Source of the DNA: a virus
Length of the DNA: 21,863 nt
Virus record (IMG/VR): IMGVR_UViG_3300046028_004129
Span: 1-21,863 of that record
Reading direction: 5' to 3' (one strand)
The position numbers and the translations under genes are program-made. Under the pieces are notes generated by a model. That model had not been told where the DNA came from and searched no databases. It worked only from the letters and a program-made list of their open reading frames with translations. The first letter of the stretch is position 1; each line of letters opens with the position of its first letter. Below are positions 2,627 to 9,621 of the stretch, one piece after another.

Positions 2627-3354
2627 GAGTCGGGATGGGCTGCGGTTGGGATGGTATTAGCGCGGGCAACGCCTTTAGTGATGCGGAGATCGTCGATATA
2701 ACCTTTACCGAATGCACCACTGACGGATGCATAATTCATTCTTAGTTCTTGATTGGCGCCAATGGTTACCGAAGAACCGTAGGTGCCTTGGGATGTGCCG
2801 TTGATGAACAGTTCACAAGTGCTGCCGCTGCGTCGAGCCATGATAAATTGCCATGCGTCATTTTTCCCCGACCATGAAGCGATCACCATATTCACGCCAC
2901 CGTTGCCAAAGTATAAAGAGCCACTGATTAGGGTCACATAAAAAGTATTTCCTTGCAGCGCAACACCGCATCCGTCGGGGTCTGTTGAGTCGCTTTTCAG
3001 CCAAAACTCGACAGTGAAATCTGTGCCTGTGCCGAATGAGAAATCAGCGGAGGAGGCGCATGATCCGTAATCATCTGTGCCGTCGGTCAGAAGCGATGCC
3101 GTGCCGAACTTGGGCGTCGTGGTGCTGAGTGCCGCGCCGCTGTTCAGAGTGATCGCGCGGGCGTAACTCGATGAGTCTGTTGTCGTCGTGGCTCCATTTG
3201 TGCCATCGAAATGGGCGAGTAGAACAACGCTGGCAAAATCGGGATCACTGCCGCCACCCGCGACGACAAATAAATATGGGTTGATGATGAACCCGAACGC
3301 GGGACAAGCCGCAGCAAGCCATACGATTGCGATGATATGAGAAAGTGTTTTCAT
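2623..3354 (-). CDS. Secreted LamG/concanavalin-A-like lectin domain protein
   Basis: A 243-residue protein. Residues 1-21 (MKTLSHIIAIVWLAAACPAFG) look like a Sec signal peptide: a positive start, a hydrophobic core and a small-residue cleavage site after AFG. From about residue 40 a LamG/concanavalin-A-like jelly-roll domain follows, with LLAHFDGTNG, FTVEFWLKSD and, near the end, GYIDDLRITKGVAR, which is diagnostic of the phage-type LamG domain. Such domains bind glycans and are common in phage adhesins and bacterial surface proteins. The ATG overlaps the stop of the large fibre gene (ATGA), so the two probably act together at the tail tip or on the cell surface. The signal peptide is unusual for a virion component. 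Confidence 0.8.
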   Translation of the reverse strand: MKTLSHIIAIVWLAAACPAFGFIINPYLFVVAGGGSDPDFASVVLLAHFDGTNGATTTTDSSSYARAITLNSGAALSTTTPKFGTASLLTDGTDDYGSCASSADFSFGTGTDFTVEFWLKSDSTDPDGCGVALQGNTFYVTLISGSLYFGNGGVNMVIASWSGKNDAWQFIMARRSGSTCELFINGTSQGTYGSSVTIGANQELRMNYASVSGAFGKGYIDDLRITKGVARANTIPTAAHPDS

Positions 3355-5165
3355 CGTGTGCCAATGATCCAGACCTTGACGCCTTCTCCGGTGTTGTCGG
3401 TAGTGGTGCCGACTTGATCAATGAATAGCTCGATCAGCGCGTCGTCTGCGAGTGCAGTGTCGGTCAGTGTGTGCGCTGTTGCAGCGGTGGTGCTGGTTGT
3501 TTCGCTCGCGTCCACGCTGAGTTTGTTGGTCGTCATCACGGTGGTGCCAGATTCGTGCAGATCCACAATGACGATTGCTCCCGTTGAGGCTTTGGTCAGA
3601 CTGCATCGCAGGCTGGTGATCGTCATTGCAAAGGGCATCCTGAAGGTCACCTTCGGAGTCGTGCTGCTGGCGGTGTTGTCGCTGGTTTCATCCGAGAGGG
3701 CAATGCCGATCTCGACTTTGGTTGCGCTAACCAAACGTGTGTCACTTCCCTGCACGGCGACACTGGCAGCAGTCTCACCATCAGTGGCAAGCTCGACGCT
3801 GCCGCGTGCAGAGGTCGTTGCGGCAGCGACGAGTGTTCCCGTGAGTGATCCATCGGCGAGGTCGGTGAGGTCGGCATCGAGTGTTTGATATGTGCTCGAT
3901 GCCGTAGCCGAGAGCAGATAATCCGTGATCGTTGCAGACTGCGTTGCCAGCGTGCCAAGTCCTAGCGTGGTGCGCTGAGCGGCGGCGTCAGCGTCATCGA
4001 GCAAAGCGCGGCCAGCCGTGGTGGTGGTCAGGGCAGCGATGCTGGTAAGGTCACTGTCGAGCGGCTGGTAGGTGCTCGATGCGGTAGCGCTCGTCAGATA
4101 CGCCGCAAGACTCTGGTCGCCCGTGTTGGTGCCGCTGAGATTCGCAACCGCACCGTTGGCAAGCATTGCGTTGCTGATTGCGCCATTGGCTATTGCAGTG
4201 GCGTTGCCAGTCGATGTTACGGGTCCGGTGAGGTTTGCATTTGTCGTCACCGTTGCAGCATTGCCGCTGGTGTTTTGGTTGAGCGTTGGAAAGTCTGTCA
4301 ATCCTGCCGCGCTGCCCGTGGTTGTTAAAATGACGCCAGTTCCAGACTCGTCAGACAAGACGCCGATGAGTTGCGCCGAGGTAGTCGCTGCAAACTGCGC
4401 GAGCGTGCCACTGGTGAGCGCGTCGCCACCGCCGCTGATGGTCTGCCAGGTGTTGTCACCACGCAAGTATTTGGTGGTAATGGAGGATCCACTGCCGAGT
4501 CGTGCTGCGGCGACGGTGCCAGATGAAATATTGTCGGCGTTGAGGCTGGTGAGACTTGCACCGCTGCCAGCCGTGGTGAGGATGGTGCCCGCGACGCTGC
4601 CGCCCGCCAGATTAGCGGTGCCCATAGTTAGACTGCCTCCCGCTGTGGTGGAGATGCTGCCTGCGTTTTGCCCCGGTGTGCCATACATGTTCAGACTGCC
4701 GCCGTTGCCGCCATGTTGAGCGTCAGCATCAGCACCTTGCAGCAACAAAGACCCACCCACGCCGCCGTGCCAAGGTGAGGCACTGGCACCGCCAAAGAAA
4801 CGAAGCGAGCCGTCACTGTATCGAGTGACGCCCGCCGACTGTCCGACAACATCGCCATCCGTGCCGATTTGTCCGGTGAAGGTTGGAGATGCTTTAGGTG
4901 CCTTCAAATCAAGCGCAGATTGCAAATCTGTCTGCGCGCTCAACGTGCCGCTAATGCTGCCCCATGCCGCCGATGCGGTGAAGCCTGTGATTGTTGCGCC
5001 AGTCGCGTTGATCGTTGCACCGCTCGCGATGGTTAGAGTCTTGCCGCTGCCGATGGTTAGGCTTTCCGTGATCGTGCTGCCGTTGATGTTCTTGAGAACG
5101 GCTTTAGTCTGCGCGGTGGCGATGGTTGCCGCGAAGATGGCGGCGAGAATGATGATGTGCTTCAT
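3351..5165 (-). CDS. Tail fibre protein with signal-peptide-like N-terminus
   Basis: A 604-residue protein read from the ATG at 5165 (MKHIIILAAIFAATIATAQ, a strong signal-peptide-like start). The open frame continues upstream to 5354, but that part overlaps the previous gene and its composition looks like out-of-frame sequence. After a low-complexity Ser/Thr/Gly region that resembles beta-helix repeats (GSGKTLTIASGATINATGA, about 38-57), a fibre hallmark KASPTFTGQ appears near residue 91. Two copies of SATASSTYQ-LD-DL lie near residues 358 and 418. The last 120 residues (ALSDET...FRMPFAMTI...IDQVG...VWIIGTR) match a domain found at the C-terminus of many phage fibres. It probably forms a trimeric receptor-binding fibre. 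Codons end in ATGA with the lectin gene. Confidence 0.85.
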   Translation of the reverse strand: MKHIIILAAIFAATIATAQTKAVLKNINGSTITESLTIGSGKTLTIASGATINATGATITGFTASAAWGSISGTLSAQTDLQSALDLKAPKASPTFTGQIGTDGDVVGQSAGVTRYSDGSLRFFGGASASPWHGGVGGSLLLQGADADAQHGGNGGSLNMYGTPGQNAGSISTTAGGSLTMGTANLAGGSVAGTILTTAGSGASLTSLNADNISSGTVAAARLGSGSSITTKYLRGDNTWQTISGGGDALTSGTLAQFAATTSAQLIGVLSDESGTGVILTTTGSAAGLTDFPTLNQNTSGNAATVTTNANLTGPVTSTGNATAIANGAISNAMLANGAVANLSGTNTGDQSLAAYLTSATASSTYQPLDSDLTSIAALTTTTAGRALLDDADAAAQRTTLGLGTLATQSATITDYLLSATASSTYQTLDADLTDLADGSLTGTLVAAATTSARGSVELATDGETAASVAVQGSDTRLVSATKVEIGIALSDETSDNTASSTTPKVTFRMPFAMTITSLRCSLTKASTGAIVIVDLHESGTTVMTTNKLSVDASETTSTTAATAHTLTDTALADDALIELFIDQVGTTTDNTGEGVKVWIIGTR

Positions 5166-5170
5166 GGTGA

Positions 5171-5863
5171 TTATCGGAGGCGCTTCCAAACTTGCTCGTT
5201 CGTGGTCGTGGCGTAGTCGTCTGGTCGCACAATACCGTTGTCCGCATCCTCTGCTGTTGTGCCTGTGGTTAGAATCCAGTCTTGAATCTCGGATGAGATT
5301 TTGAGGATCACGTAAAGGTTGGATTTTCCACTTGTGGTTATGGCATCGAGGCATGTTGACGTTCCACCAGTGAGCGCGGTGATTAGCGGCTTCCAGACTG
5401 GCACATTTTGCTCCAAGTATTCAGCCCCACCGTCGATTACTTCGACGCTCGCAGGCTCTGGCGCGACTGATGGGCGGATGATCTGAGCGCCAACTACAGT
5501 GTCCGAAATGGCAGGAGATGATGCCTCGCCGGATGCCCACCAATGAACCTCGACACTTGCCGCGATTGCTAGCACGGTGGCAGTCGTGAACGCCGTAGTC
5601 AGTGGCGTTGTATTGAGAATTAGAGTGCCGGTATAGTAGCCCGTTGCCGCCCCCGGCGCCGTGAATGACGTGCAAGTTGCCAGCGTCGTTCCCGCCCTTT
5701 CGAGGTAGAGGGCAAGGCCGAATCCAGTCGGTAAAAGCTCATCTGTGCCGTCGCGGTGAAAGTGAATGCGAATCGGTTCGCGACTCCGCCATTTGAGCGC
5801 GATTTCATCCACGCCGTTTGTCGGCACTAGCTGGTTAGTCGCAAGGTCAAAAGTGAAGTCCAC
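5171..5863 (-). CDS. Putative minor tail/baseplate structural protein
   Basis: A 230-residue protein starting at GTG 5863 (MDFTFDLATNQLVP). This start is chosen because it follows a TTTTGACAT element by the same distance and with the same ATTCGTG context as the head-closure gene at 16695. The first 130 residues look beta-rich and repeat the phrase 'A-W-A-S-G' type of Ig-like or jelly-roll sequence (RIHFHRDGTDELLP, YYTGTLILNTTP, EVHWWASGE). The C-terminal 60 residues contain alternating hydrophobic strands and end in TNEQVWKRLR. Similar proteins with an N-terminal jelly-roll often sit just before fibre genes in phages and act as baseplate or fibre adaptors, but I do not recognise a named family. 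The stop lies 5 bases before the fibre start. Confidence 0.55.
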   Translation of the reverse strand: MDFTFDLATNQLVPTNGVDEIALKWRSREPIRIHFHRDGTDELLPTGFGLALYLERAGTTLATCTSFTAPGAATGYYTGTLILNTTPLTTAFTTATVLAIAASVEVHWWASGEASSPAISDTVVGAQIIRPSVAPEPASVEVIDGGAEYLEQNVPVWKPLITALTGGTSTCLDAITTSGKSNLYVILKISSEIQDWILTTGTTAEDADNGIVRPDDYATTTNEQVWKRLR

Positions 5864-5876
5864 GAATCGCGGCGGA

Positions 5877-5884
5877 TGTCAAAA
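5877..5884 (-). promoter_or_regulatory. TTTTGACA element, minor tail protein leader
   Basis: TTTTGACA contains the TGA stop of the methyltransferase-like gene and lies 13 bases before the GTG at 5863, with the same ATTCGTG start context as the gene at 16695. Confidence 0.5.
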
Positions 5885-6466
5885 CAGGCGAAACTCTCTC
5901 CGCCCCCACTGAGCCGCCATCGCCTCCGCTATTCCAGCCATTGTTCGTGAGCGCTCCTTCCACCTGTCCGCGCTGGGTGGCATTTTCCAGATTCTTTGCT
6001 CGCGCCCCCCCACTATATTTGTTGGAGTCAGTTTCGGCAGATTTTTGAGCCAGAGGCAGGTTGCCTTTGTCTCGCCGTGTCCAAACTGCCAAGGCTGAAT
6101 GATTTGATCGGGCTTCCTGATTCGACTGCTGATGATGCTGATTGGGTTTTCCAACGCAATGCTGGCAATATTTGCACCCAGTAATAATCTGACAAATTCC
6201 AAAGCCTCATCTTGCACTCCGCTCTCTCGTTTTGCGGGAAAGTGGCGAGCGCCAGAAACCGCTAGATGCGTGCAAGGCGGATGTGCAATCATCACATCCC
6301 ATCCATCGCCCATCACGTTAAGCACATCGGTTTGGTGGTGGTTGCCTGGCTTTTCACTAGGCAGTAGATCGCATGACCATGCATCCCATCCGCGCCGAGC
6401 GAATGCATCGCGAACGGTGCCGGAATATTCACACGCTATCAGTATTCTGCCGATTTTGTTTTTCAT
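5879..6466 (-). CDS. Cytosine-C5 DNA methyltransferase-like protein, short phage form
   Basis: A 195-residue protein from the ATG at 6466 (MKNKIGRILIACEYSGTVRD). It has a class I SAM-binding start (ILIACEYSG, 8-16), an acidic CDLLPSE at 32-38, the PPC motif (63-65) that holds the catalytic cysteine of C5 cytosine methyltransferases, and ENP at 106-108 (motif VI). The patterns QPWQFGH (124-130) and ETKATCLWL are typical of a small phage family usually called DNA cytosine methyltransferase. It has no room for a normal target-recognition domain, so specificity, or even the DNA substrate, is uncertain. It may protect phage DNA from restriction. The longer frame from GTG 6529 would overlap the oxygenase gene and is less likely. 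The stop codon TGA lies inside a TTTTGACA element. Confidence 0.75.
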   Translation of the reverse strand: MKNKIGRILIACEYSGTVRDAFARRGWDAWSCDLLPSEKPGNHHQTDVLNVMGDGWDVMIAHPPCTHLAVSGARHFPAKRESGVQDEALEFVRLLLGANIASIALENPISIISSRIRKPDQIIQPWQFGHGETKATCLWLKNLPKLTPTNIVGGREQRIWKMPPSADRWKERSRTMAGIAEAMAAQWGRREFRLF

Positions 6467-6481
6467 GCAAAATAACAAAGC

Positions 6482-6502
6482 GCAACCGTTGCAACCGTCA
6501 AC
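6482..6502. repeat. GTTGCAAC palindromic element, methyltransferase leader copy
   Basis: The gap between the oxygenase stop and the methyltransferase start holds GTTGCAAC at 6488-6495, flanked by a GCAAC half copy on one side and GTCAAC on the other. The copy at 21464 has the same right flank. Confidence 0.5.
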
Positions 6503-6504
6503 AA

Positions 6505-7068
6505 CTATCTCGTCGGCCCATGAATCCACGTCACCAACGAATGCCTAATTCCTCGCGTGACTGGTTGCGCTTGATGCGTCAGCGCCGAACGGAAAAAGAG
6601 CACGTCGCCAGCGTTGCGAAAGTAAGTGTCAGGAATTGGATCGCCGCGAAGCTCAAACTTGCCGCCGTCGTATGCGCTCGCCTCGGTTAGTTGCATAACC
6701 ATTGTCAGCTTGCGGTCCATCGGCTTTTTGATGCGCGCTGAACTGTCCTCGTGCCATCCGTAATGCTCAAGGTCTTTGGAGTCGTATTCGGTGAACTGCC
6801 ACTCGACGGATGAGTGTTGGAGATCCAAACCGAACGACTGATTTGCGAGCAATGCCTTTGCATCAAGTCTGCGGAAAAGCCAGAGAAGGTCGAGATCGCC
6901 ATAGTCCAGCCATCGAACGGTTGATTTGCGTAACTGCGGATTAAGCGCGGACGTTCCGCCGTGACCAGTTGTTGCGGGTCGCGCCTCATAGCGTTTCTGC
7001 GCGTGCTTAACAACCATCTTGCACTCTTTCGGAGTGAGGACAGCGGGACAGTGGAACCAATCAATCAT
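6505..7068 (-). CDS. 2-oxoglutarate/Fe(II) oxygenase, PKHD/prolyl-4-hydroxylase type
   Basis: A 187-residue protein with the facial triad of 2-oxoglutarate-dependent oxygenases: H106 and D108 in YGWHEDSS, and H165 in [17 protein letters not shown]175 (10 residues after the distal histidine) is the probable 2-oxoglutarate-binding arginine. The phrase H-x-x-x-PVTRG-x-R-x-x-x-x-x-W is typical of the PKHD/P4H subfamily (SMART P4Hc), whose known members hydroxylate proline or other residues. The ATG at 7068 overlaps the stop of the third collagen-like fibre gene (ATGA), so it is co-translated with it. This suggests, but does not prove, that the enzyme hydroxylates prolines in the Gly-X-Pro repeats of the three fibres. 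DNA-base or small-molecule substrates are alternatives, as such enzymes are frequent in phages without known targets. Confidence 0.85.
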
Positions 7069-7934
7069 GGTGGTGGTGTGTTGATCGCGGATGCCCAGAA
7101 GGCGTCGTTGCGTTTTTTCTGCGTAGCGGTGAACTCAGGGAATCGGCGCGGCTCGATGTGATTCGGTGCCGCGCTTATGGTTGCCGCCCCTGTCAAAAGC
7201 TGCGCTTGTTTGCGAGCGGTTTTGATGACGATCATGTTGCCAACAATGGACGCACCTAACAACATGCTGCGACATGGGACGGCGGATGTTACGAGGATGG
7301 AATCGAGATGGACGGCGGCGAGAAAGCGCGGGTGCATCACAACGGTTGCGGTGGTTGAGCCTTTCGGAATTGACCATTCAACGACCTCGACAAAGCGCAT
7401 TTCGGGCTGCTCGATGACGTGCAATCCGACGATCTCGGTTCCGCTTTGGACGATGGCGAGTTTTGCTCCCGGCGGTCCCGGCGCGCCACCCGTCCCCATT
7501 GATCCATCTGCGCCTGCTGGCCCCTTGTCTCCCGGCGGCCCCGGCCCTGCTGGCGGTCCCGGCGGCCCCGGCCCTCCGGGCGGTCCCATTGGTCCCTGTG
7601 GTCCATTGTTTCCGGCTGGTCCCGGTGGCCCCGGCGTCAATGGTCCAACTGGTCCGCGTGCGCCCGGTCCTCCGGGTGGTCCCGGTGACGTTTGCGCTGG
7701 TCCTGTTGCGCCAGTTGGTCCCGTTGGTCCTTGTGCGCCGCCGTCTCCCGGTGGTCCGGGTGCGTATAGATCGGCGTCTATGTATCCCGCATTGTTAGAC
7801 GTAAACTCGCCCGATGTTATACCGCCGCCGACTTGCTTCATCAGCCACGTTCCAGCATCCCGCAAATCGGAGGCGAGCGCTAGCCCGCCGCTGCGCTTGA
7901 ACCTGTAAACGGCTTTTTGTTTCTGTGCTTTCAC
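7065..7934 (-). CDS. Collagen-like tail fibre protein, third of three
   Basis: A 289-residue protein in three parts. Residues 1-58 form a non-collagenous head ([13 protein letters not shown]). Residues 59-157 are Gly-X-Y collagen repeats with many Gly-Pro-Pro triplets and a few breaks such as QTSPG and LTPG. Residues 158-289 form a globular tip starting KLAIVQSG and ending near [12 protein letters not shown]. The start is GTG at 7934 in the context CATTCGTG, overlapping the stop of the previous gene (GTGA). Head, tip start and C-terminal motif are recognisably shared with the two upstream fibres, so these are paralogues. Collagen-like repeats form trimeric stalks in phage fibres. Its stop overlaps the start of the 2-oxoglutarate oxygenase. 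Confidence 0.85.
7464..7760 (-). repeat. Collagen-like triplet repeat tract 3
   Basis: About 100 residues of Gly-X-Y triplets in the third fibre gene. It has the densest Gly-Pro-Pro run of the three ([18 protein letters not shown] at about residues 118-135). Confidence 0.85.
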
Positions 7935-8764
7935 GAATGGGCGAGAGAGTAAAAGTCGTCATTCTTCCGCTTTTGATCTGGCGTGTAATCGCGATAAAAC
8001 CAGTTGCCGCAACCTCTGCGAATGCCCGCAACGGTGACGGTTCCGGCCCTGCCTTGAGAGTCGATGACGGCGCGATTGCCTTTGATATATGCGCCACAAC
8101 CAGTGAGCGAGCATGACATCACGCGCAGGCTGTCCGGCTCAATTGTTCCACGAAAAAGCGCAGGTATTGGAATGCTTTTCGTGGTTGCGCTGAACGTTAG
8201 ACGCTCGACGAAATAAGGGCGCGGTGATTCGGTGGCGATCATGCCGACGTGCCAACCTTCCGCCACGGTGACGATGGCATATTTATCTCCGGGCGGTCCC
8301 GGCGGTCCCTGTGGGCCATCCGGTCCCGGCGCGCCAGTGTCTCCCGGTTCTCCCGGTGGTCCCTGTGGACCTCCATCCGGTCCCGGCGATCCGACTGGTC
8401 CGGGCGGTCCGGGAATGCCCGGAATGCCATCAGGCCCGGTCGGCATCGGTCCCGGTGGTCCCGGTGTTGTCTGTGCCGGTCCCGGCGGCCCCGGCGTTGT
8501 GCTTGGCGGTCCGGCTGGTCCTGCCGCGCCTGCTGGTCCTGTTGGTCCGGGTGACCCCGCCATGCCCGCCGCTCCATCTGGTCCGGGTGGATGGCTGCCC
8601 GTGAGGTCAATGTATGTGCTGCCATCAGCGCGCTCTTGAAATCCCGGCTCGTTCGCGAATGAGATTTTGTAACCCAAGACGCGTCCCATAAACCGAATGT
8701 AATCGGAGAGTTGAGAGGCTTTGAGCACGCCTGATTTCGGCAGCATGTATCTGACTGGTGTCAT
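7931..8764 (-). CDS. Collagen-like tail fibre protein, second of three
   Basis: A 277-residue protein from the ATG at 8764 ([20 protein letters not shown]); this start overlaps the stop of the first fibre gene (ATGA) and is preceded by GGAGG 7 bases upstream. A longer frame to 8827 exists but lies inside the previous gene. Residues 1-58 are the head, with [12 protein letters not shown] matching [12 protein letters not shown] of the first fibre. Residues 59-159 are Gly-X-Y repeats. The tip begins [10 protein letters not shown] and ends with TVAGIRRG and [19 protein letters not shown], clearly related to the first fibre's end. The tip contains several cysteines (for example MSCSLTGCG), rare in the rest of the module. 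A trimeric receptor-binding fibre is the likely role. Confidence 0.85.
8288..8590 (-). repeat. Collagen-like triplet repeat tract 2
   Basis: About 100 residues of Gly-X-Y triplets in the second fibre gene, rich in GPPGP and with PSTTPG and AQTTPG breaks. Its similar length to the other two tracts suggests that stalk length is under constraint. Confidence 0.85.
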
Positions 8765-9621
8765 GCGTGAGCCTCCGCGTAAAAAGCAGCATTGCGCGCC
8801 ATTTGCTCCGCCGTGTATCGCGGCCATGATGCGCCCACAAAGCCGCGACGAATGCCCGTGACGGTAAAGACCGCTTCGAGCATTGCGCGCGCTTCTGTGA
8901 CGATATACGGCCCGCGCATGATGGCAGTGATGCGCGCAGGCTTGTTAGTCGTGACGCTTTCAATCTGCGCGGTTCCCGGCTCAATAACGGCGAGAAACTG
9001 CGCGTCGATTGGGATGTGACTTGTTCCCTTCGTGATGCGCGCTTTGATGTGGTCGCGAAAAAGGCACTCGCCGGACTCAATCGCGGCGAATCCATAAACG
9101 CCTTGATGGTTGGCCACGATGGCGGTCTTTGTCGGGTCGCCATCAGGTCCGGGCAATCCGTCAAGCGAAACGCCAGGTGATCCAGTCGCTCCCGTTGGCC
9201 CAACGTCGCCCTCCCAAGTGTTCACTCCCGGCGGTCCCGGCACTACTGGTCCCGCTGGTCCGGGCGGCCCCGGCACTGTGCTTGGCGGCCCCGGATCGGT
9301 TGGCGTTGGTCCCGGCGGCCCCGGCGCGCCCGGATCACCCTCCGGGCCATCTGGCCCCGGCGTGAGCGCTCCCGGCGGTCCATCTGGACCAGTTGGTCCC
9401 GTGACCCCGGTCGCGCCCGTTGCGCCCGGCGCTCCATTGTTTGTGAGCTTCCAGAAAACCGAACCGTCGGCGCGGACCTCGGCGCGGGTGACGCCCTTTG
9501 CCTCAATATCGAATTGAGCATGAACGCGAGCACCAATCCACGCCATCCAGTCGCGCAAGTCACGCATGGTGGCGACTCCGCGAAATCTCCTGATGCGATA
9601 CGTTGGCGCGACTCGTCCCAT
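8761..9621 (-). CDS. Collagen-like tail fibre protein, first of three
   Basis: A 286-residue protein. Residues 1-62 are a basic head ([19 protein letters not shown]). Residues 63-162 are Gly-X-Y repeats, more interrupted than in the other two copies ([20 protein letters not shown] breaks). The tip from residue 165 ([10 protein letters not shown]) to the end contains TVTGIRRG and [19 protein letters not shown], both shared with the second fibre. The ATG at 9621 follows AATAACCAA, where the TAA is the stop of the upstream minor tail gene. As the gene nearest the tape-measure side it may form the part of the fibre closest to the baseplate, or the three may form alternative or hetero-oligomeric fibres; the sequence cannot say which. 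Confidence 0.85.
9136..9435 (-). repeat. Collagen-like triplet repeat tract 1
   Basis: About 100 residues of Gly-X-Y triplets in the first fibre gene. At DNA level it is a degenerate 9-base repeat (GGN CCN CCN) with frequent synonymous variation and five or so in-frame interruptions. Confidence 0.85.

Follow-up and report, generated by a model that had tools for sequence, protein, structure and literature searches.

Three collagen-like fibre genes form an overlapping chain with a putative prolyl hydroxylase gene in a phage genome, and collagen-oxygenase linkage recurs in other phages

The IMG/VR virus record IMGVR_UViG_3300046028_004129, whose 21,863 bases were analysed as a whole and are referred to here as the window, contains a cassette of three collagen-like fibre genes (F1, F2 and F3) followed by a gene for a 2-oxoglutarate (2OG)/Fe(II) oxygenase with a predicted prolyl-hydroxylase fold. 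Oxygenases of this type recur next to collagen genes in other viruses, and a comparison of these sequences makes it very probable that collagen-like fibres are modified by enzymes of the phages themselves. The initial annotation of this DNA had proposed such a modification for the window phage. The recurrent linkage, together with a match between a companion enzyme and the lysine content of the neighboring collagens, speaks in favor of this claim, whereas the position of the window enzyme outside the collagen-linked clade of oxygenases speaks against it.

All four genes lie on the minus strand in the order F1, F2, F3, oxygenase (Table 1), and each overlaps the next by 4 bp, with ATGA at F1/F2, GTGA at F2/F3 and ATGA at F3/oxygenase. 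The genes, their order, strand and overlaps are thus as annotated at first, namely three collagen-like fibre genes joined to an oxygenase by an ATGA overlap. For F2, a longer open reading frame (ORF) call begins upstream at 8827, but the ATG at 8764 was taken as the start because it results in the 4-bp overlap and agrees with the paralogues. The three fibres are paralogous, F2 and F3 being 40 and 38% identical to F1. All of them exceed the curated cut-off of PF01391 (27.2 bits), and none of 2000 shuffles matched their longest Gly-X-Y runs, and therefore the collagen domains are real. The tracts do have the length of about 100 residues per fibre that had been ascribed to them, but they are not continuous: interruptions of one to several residues break Gly-X-Y in every fibre, and none of the three carries a long uninterrupted Gly-X-Y tract.

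The linkage between oxygenases and collagens was surveyed in viral contigs using a DNA pattern for Gly-Pro-X repeats, which gave 80 loci, 77 of them with collagen ORFs. Oxygenases of the family PF13640 were found in 15 of the 77 collagen-bearing contigs, compared to none of 39 control contigs, which were retrieved using an identical word at non-collagen spacing (a small set, with unmatched hosts). In 11 of the 15 contigs, the oxygenase gene and a collagen ORF share a strand, with the oxygenase 0-5 kb downstream. When seven collagen-linked oxygenases were used as queries, at least 588 relatives were returned, and among the best 80 of these, 66 loci had at least 1.5 kb of upstream sequence and were eligible, many of them being near-copies. 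A same-strand collagen gene lay at most 5 kb away in 65 of the 66 (upstream in 61 and immediately downstream in 4); the remaining locus had neither, and collagen on the opposite strand did not occur. The linkage that the initial annotation had proposed to search for is hence a recurrent one. Because the first query set had been built from linked cases, a reverse scan was made with four unlinked cyanophage oxygenases, and here 1 of 49 eligible loci was collagen-linked.

On a tree of 61 oxygenase sequences below 70% identity, this sole linked locus falls into a clade, termed C (18 rows, support 95/97), whose members are all collagen-linked, whereas none of the 33 rows of its sister group, clade D (support 96/85), is linked. 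The 66 loci of the first scan stand for clade C, and the 49 of the reverse scan for group D. The collagen label changes 4 times on this tree, as opposed to 15.6 times when shuffled. Homologs in phages without a nearby collagen gene, which had been named at the outset as evidence against fibre modification, therefore do exist in the family at large, but they make up a separate clade. The window oxygenase and the linked oxygenases of L161, L166 and L170 stand outside both clades, on long or weakly placed branches, which means that collagen linkage came about, or was kept, on more than one occasion. Like the members of clade C, the window oxygenase has a same-strand collagen gene less than 5 kb away, but it does not belong to the clade. 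Of 195 Verrucomicrobiota genomes, 12 contain chromosomal relatives of the oxygenase, all without collagen in their neighborhood.

Many clade-C oxygenase genes are overlapped and followed by a gene for a fusion protein of 580-620 residues that combines GT25, PLOD glycosyltransferase and 2OG oxygenase domains. In phage S-PRM1, residues 4-204 of this fusion match human procollagen galactosyltransferase 1 (7e-23), residues 227-417 human LH3 (4e-33) and residues 441-604 a viral procollagen lysyl hydroxylase/glycosyltransferase (1e-9). The fusion is present in the cultured phages S-PRM1, S-8S55, S-CAM9 and CRP-6, and some database entries from uncultured phages carry automatic names such as procollagen-lysine 5-dioxygenase. 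When the fusion protein itself was used as a query, 52 of 55 eligible loci had a collagen gene upstream. Furthermore, the presence of the fusion agrees with lysine in the Y position (Y-Lys) in 34 of 34 loci, with 16-44% Y-Lys in the 20 that have the fusion and 0-1% in the 14 that do not. On the oxygenase tree, fusion and Y-Lys change together in all four supported independent pairs, although four pairs are too few for significance at 0.05 in a sign test. L246 and L253 have sister oxygenases (support 100/98), and one cassette carries the fusion and 21% Y-Lys, while the other has neither. The concordance is direct comparative evidence for phage enzymes that are matched to the collagen of the phage's own fibres. 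The glycosyltransferase family GT_PLOD (PF25342) had no match in a second record of the window phage, G001 (38,394 bases), which is possibly an incomplete contig.

Further arrangements were seen at individual loci. At L166:4477-6255, three consecutive PF13640 oxygenases follow, on the downstream side, two collagen ORFs in which 24-37% of the Y positions are proline (Y-Pro). A large collagen-like ORF of 219 triplets at L161:5166-8678, just upstream of a non-clade-C oxygenase, has no proline in X (X-Pro) and 23% Y-Pro (GNPG, GQPG). In S-PRM1 (L293:6474-7085) and S-CAM9 (L475:7839-8450), an extra stand-alone PF13640 oxygenase separates the collagen fibre from the clade-C oxygenase.

With respect to the window oxygenase itself, its PF13640 score is 50.1 bits (cut-off 27), and the iron- and 2OG-binding signature that had been read from its sequence, H106-x-D108, H165 and R175, is unchanged at all four residues in the 31 aligned phage oxygenases. 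The AlphaFold (AF2) model has a predicted local distance difference test value (pLDDT) of 92.9 and a predicted template modelling score (pTM) of 0.89. The nearest solved folds according to Foldseek are the prolyl 4-hydroxylase (P4H) of P. putida (4iw3/4j25), the viral collagen prolyl hydroxylase (vCPH) of the virus PBCV-1 (5c5t), an algal P4H (3gze) and the Dictyostelium and human PHD enzymes; PiuC and the uncharacterised 3dkq are likewise among the matches, and nearly all of the nearest folds are prolyl hydroxylases. A clade-C relative gave a largely similar list. The predicted fold points to a protein prolyl hydroxylase, though it does not name the substrate. The profile of the PKHD equivalog YbiX/PiuC (PRK05467) scored below its NCBIfam cut-off (48.5 vs 143 bits).

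Table 1. Coordinates of the window features discussed in the text and of fusion genes in related cassettes
Feature	Coordinates	Strand	Remarks
F1, collagen-like fibre, 286 residues	8761-9621	minus	PF01391 5.1e-8, 33.0 bits; PHROG tail fibre matches; paralogue of F2 and F3
F1, interrupted Gly-X-Y region, residues 63-163	9133-9435	minus	longest run 8 triplets
F2, collagen-like fibre, 277 residues from ATG at 8764	7931-8764	minus	PF01391 1.9e-8, 34.3 bits; 4-bp overlap with F1
F2, interrupted Gly-X-Y region, residues 61-161	8282-8584	minus	longest run 10 triplets
F3, collagen-like fibre, 289 residues, GTG start	7065-7934	minus	PF01391 1.8e-7, 31.3 bits; 4-bp overlap with F2
F3, interrupted Gly-X-Y region, residues 60-158	7461-7757	minus	longest run 9 triplets
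2OG/Fe(II) oxygenase, PKHD/prolyl-hydroxylase fold, 187 residues	6505-7068	minus	PF13640 5.4e-13; PHROG 61 3.3e-20
H106-x-D108, iron ligands	6745-6753	minus	invariant in two phage-oxygenase alignments
H165, iron ligand	6574-6576	minus	invariant in two phage-oxygenase alignments
R175, probable 2OG carboxylate ligand	6544-6546	minus	invariant in two phage-oxygenase alignments
DNA methyltransferase homologue	5879-6529		directly after the oxygenase; PHROG 757, 3e-70
Fusion gene, L293	7636-9480		beside QKGE-type collagen fibre
Fusion gene, L296	7579-9444		beside QKGE-type collagen fibre
Fusion gene, L475	9001-10845		beside QKGE-type collagen fibre
Fusion gene, L474	6926-8695		beside QKGE-type collagen fibre
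Fusion gene, L036	2798-4621		beside QKGE-type collagen fibre

Which residue might such a small oxygenase modify? The window tracts, taken together, comprise 81 triplets, in which proline occupies 53% of the X and 40% of the Y positions, in line with the abundance of Y-Pro noted at first, and lysine 4% of Y; Thr and Lys are both scarce in Y. By comparison, 61 other phage collagens with at least 15 triplets have a median of 3% Y-Pro, and two alone reach or approach the level of the window. Bacterial and viral collagens have been described as having no preference for Y-Pro, which was attributed to absent prolyl hydroxylases (PMC3368898, a 2012 study of phage-borne collagens). In cassettes that carry the oxygenase but not the fusion, X-Pro is 0.64-0.87 and Y-Lys is absent. 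Where the fusion occurs without a separate oxygenase, X-Pro is 0.06 (Roseobacter phage CRP-6) or 0 (L526), and in the complete genome of CRP-6 the fusion itself is the only PF13640 match. With oxygenase-only cassettes being Pro-rich and fusion-only cassettes nearly Pro-free, an action of the small oxygenase on proline fits the pattern. Since the linked collagens outside the window are mostly low in Y-Pro, the usual target, if it is proline at all, must by this pattern be the X-position proline, as in Gly-Pro-Thr. 4-Hydroxylation of Y-Pro, toward which the initial annotation had pointed, cannot be the reaction in general, because collagen-linked relatives lie beside Gly-Pro-Thr collagens in which Y-Pro is almost nil. 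Linked tracts contain more Thr in Y than unlinked ones (p 0.0009, uncorrected for relatedness). The P4H of B. anthracis has been reported to hydroxylate collagen-like peptides at X and Y, with Y favored (PMC8968730).

For the window, we propose that F1-F2-F3-oxygenase is a tail-fibre maturation cassette. The oxygenase would be translated right after the fibres and would hydroxylate stalk prolines, using Fe(II), O2 and 2OG, while the chains are still unfolded; the modified chains would then assemble into triple-helical stalks, and the stalk would become more stable or bind differently. We infer both that proline (in X, Y or both) is the target and that these fibres, with their unusually Pro-rich Y position, are the substrate. 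By analogy with the linked enzymes, hydroxylation of fibre prolines by the window oxygenase appears to us fairly likely; what it would do to thermal stability, protease resistance or receptor binding is a matter of conjecture. As the enzyme is located outside clade C, its role rests on the gene overlap, the prolyl-hydroxylase fold and analogy. The window cassette, with an oxygenase and no fusion, much Pro and low Y-Lys, displays a proline-only pattern. In a wider sense, tailed phages may run a modular collagen-maturation pathway, in which a stand-alone prolyl hydroxylase would serve Pro-rich stalks, a COLGALT-LH3-like fusion would serve Lys-bearing stalks, or both would be used; that they do so, and that the window represents the proline-only version with Y-Pro hydroxylated as in animal collagen, is a proposal that we regard as evenly poised.

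Several observations weigh against proline hydroxylation of the fibres. The Gly-X-Y tracts are short and interrupted, which may put a stable triple helix in doubt. The window oxygenase is long-branched and at most 37% identical to any relative, and relatives in other phages adjoin DNA-replication, tRNA or host-metabolism genes. The gene next after the oxygenase encodes a DNA methyltransferase homologue, such that the operon is not purely structural. Furthermore, L288:1717-3967 has a clade-C oxygenase and the fusion, yet its collagen tract is without any Pro, and hence at least some of these enzymes must have a target other than Pro. The collagens of clade C are nearly without Y-Pro, and the Y-Pro-rich L053, L031, L064 and L085 carry no PF13640 gene; high Y-Pro was considered as a mark of oxygenase linkage and was rejected on these grounds.

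Among the alternatives, the one that survives best, though we consider it unlikely, is that the oxygenase is not a prolyl hydroxylase, but acts on the fibres at Thr, Asn, Asp or Lys, or aids glycosylation. The Y-Thr enrichment and the Gly-Pro-Thr collagens beside linked relatives would agree with this, as would the Pro-free tract of L288. However, the window fibres are rich in Y-Pro and low in Y-Thr and Y-Lys, the nearest folds are prolyl hydroxylases, and the nearly Pro-free CRP-6 and L526 do without a small oxygenase. Slightly less probable again is the hydroxylation of a host protein, the placement after the fibres being incidental. The translational chaining with the fibres, the clade-specific collagen linkage and the presence of a lysyl-hydroxylase fusion in related cassettes argue against it, even though the P. 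putida P4H, an enzyme that acts on EF-Tu and was solved together with it (4iw3), is the top fold match, and PF13640 relatives without collagen neighbors are common in phages. DNA modification was likewise weighed and judged unlikely. An oxygenase with DNA or a small molecule as its substrate, or one that depletes 2OG as an auxiliary metabolic gene, perhaps along with the adjacent DNA methyltransferase homologue, would be in keeping with cyanophage papers that assign such oxygenases to DNA repair or 2OG control (PMC3037559, PMC9602691); those assignments are speculative and leave collagen unconsidered, the window oxygenase matches no TET/JBP or AlkB Pfam family, and its fold list consists of protein hydroxylases, making this a distinctly improbable explanation. 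Least probable of all is a chance neighbor or passenger without a fibre role: the position outside the collagen-linked clade would allow for it, but adjacency is rare in group D (~2%, the 1 of 49 above), and here there is a 4-bp overlap, albeit in a case selected for adjacency.

A lambda-type portal and a major head protein of PHROG 283 are encoded by the window phage, along with a tape measure protein and an S49-type head protease. G001 shows identity to the window over 21.6 kb and extends leftward, and an ORF in this extension reads, by its sequence alone, like a tyrosine-recombinase integrase. Judging from these virion genes and this ORF, the phage is probably a temperate siphovirus. Its portal matches Verrucomicrobia phage P8625 and one Akkermansia phage only, and the best capsid match is in an Akkermansiaceae assembly, which makes a Verrucomicrobiota host likely. 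Close relatives were sought in single-protein scans with the oxygenase, the fibre C-termini and the product of the gene that lies upstream of the fibres, but only G001 and two distant oxygenases were returned, and a genome scan with the window oxygenase gave no match. Neither collagen nor oxygenase was found in the available flanks of 80 bacterial loci with major-capsid relatives, several of whose contigs stop before the fibre region. Elsewhere in the window, a LamG/ConA-like lectin-domain protein (PF13385, 2623-3354) and a repetitive, Ala/Thr/Ser-rich fibre-like protein of 667 residues (3351-5354), whose genes overlap by 4 bp, are probably further parts for host contact.

In the open PubMed Central (PMC) literature, a scope that excludes most subscription journals and all preprints, we found no description of enzymes that modify collagen in the fibres of a phage. 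The initial annotation knew of no such system for a double-stranded DNA phage, which agrees with this, apart from the automatic annotations mentioned above; the annotation exists, and the system itself seems to be undescribed. Prolyl 4-hydroxylase has been listed among viral auxiliary genes, with its use termed cryptic (PMC9301287), and bacteria and viruses were stated in 2012 to lack the required prolyl hydroxylases (PMC3368898). Phage collagens have hitherto been treated as unmodified. If they are in fact modified, then virion mass spectrometry, host-range work and phage-collagen biomaterials must allow for hydroxylation and glycosylation, and cyanophage 2OG oxygenases without an assigned function gain a testable substrate. 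Compact collagen hydroxylases that can be expressed in bacteria and a one-chain COLGALT-LH3 enzyme would also serve recombinant collagen production.

Among known systems, PBCV-1 vCPH (Eriksson et al. 1999, cited in PMC9301287) is likewise a virus-encoded, single-domain 2OG/Fe(II) enzyme of the same fold (Foldseek E 1.5e-9). It was proposed to act on viral Pro-rich proteins. However, it comes from a eukaryotic algal virus, has ~17% identity to the window oxygenase and is likened to it by fold, not by its 2OG ligand or its substrates. We know of no operon that joins vCPH to fibres. The B. anthracis P4H is a prokaryotic 2OG enzyme that acts on collagen-like peptides, but is bacterial rather than from a phage, and it is not known to us to be joined translationally with its substrate. 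The P. putida P4H (PPHD, 4iw3) is closest by fold and the PKHD-type YbiX/PiuC closest by NCBIfam profile, though below cut-off; both differ in being chromosomal and in having a role with EF-Tu or in iron uptake. The fusion enzyme found next to clade-C oxygenases, which the window phage does not have, is predicted to have the same activities as the procollagen lysyl hydroxylase/glycosyltransferase L230 of Mimivirus (Luther et al. 2011) and human LH3 and COLGALT1, but differs from them in that COLGALT-like, LH3-glycosyltransferase-like and LH-like domains are united in a single chain that is encoded beside a fibre gene.

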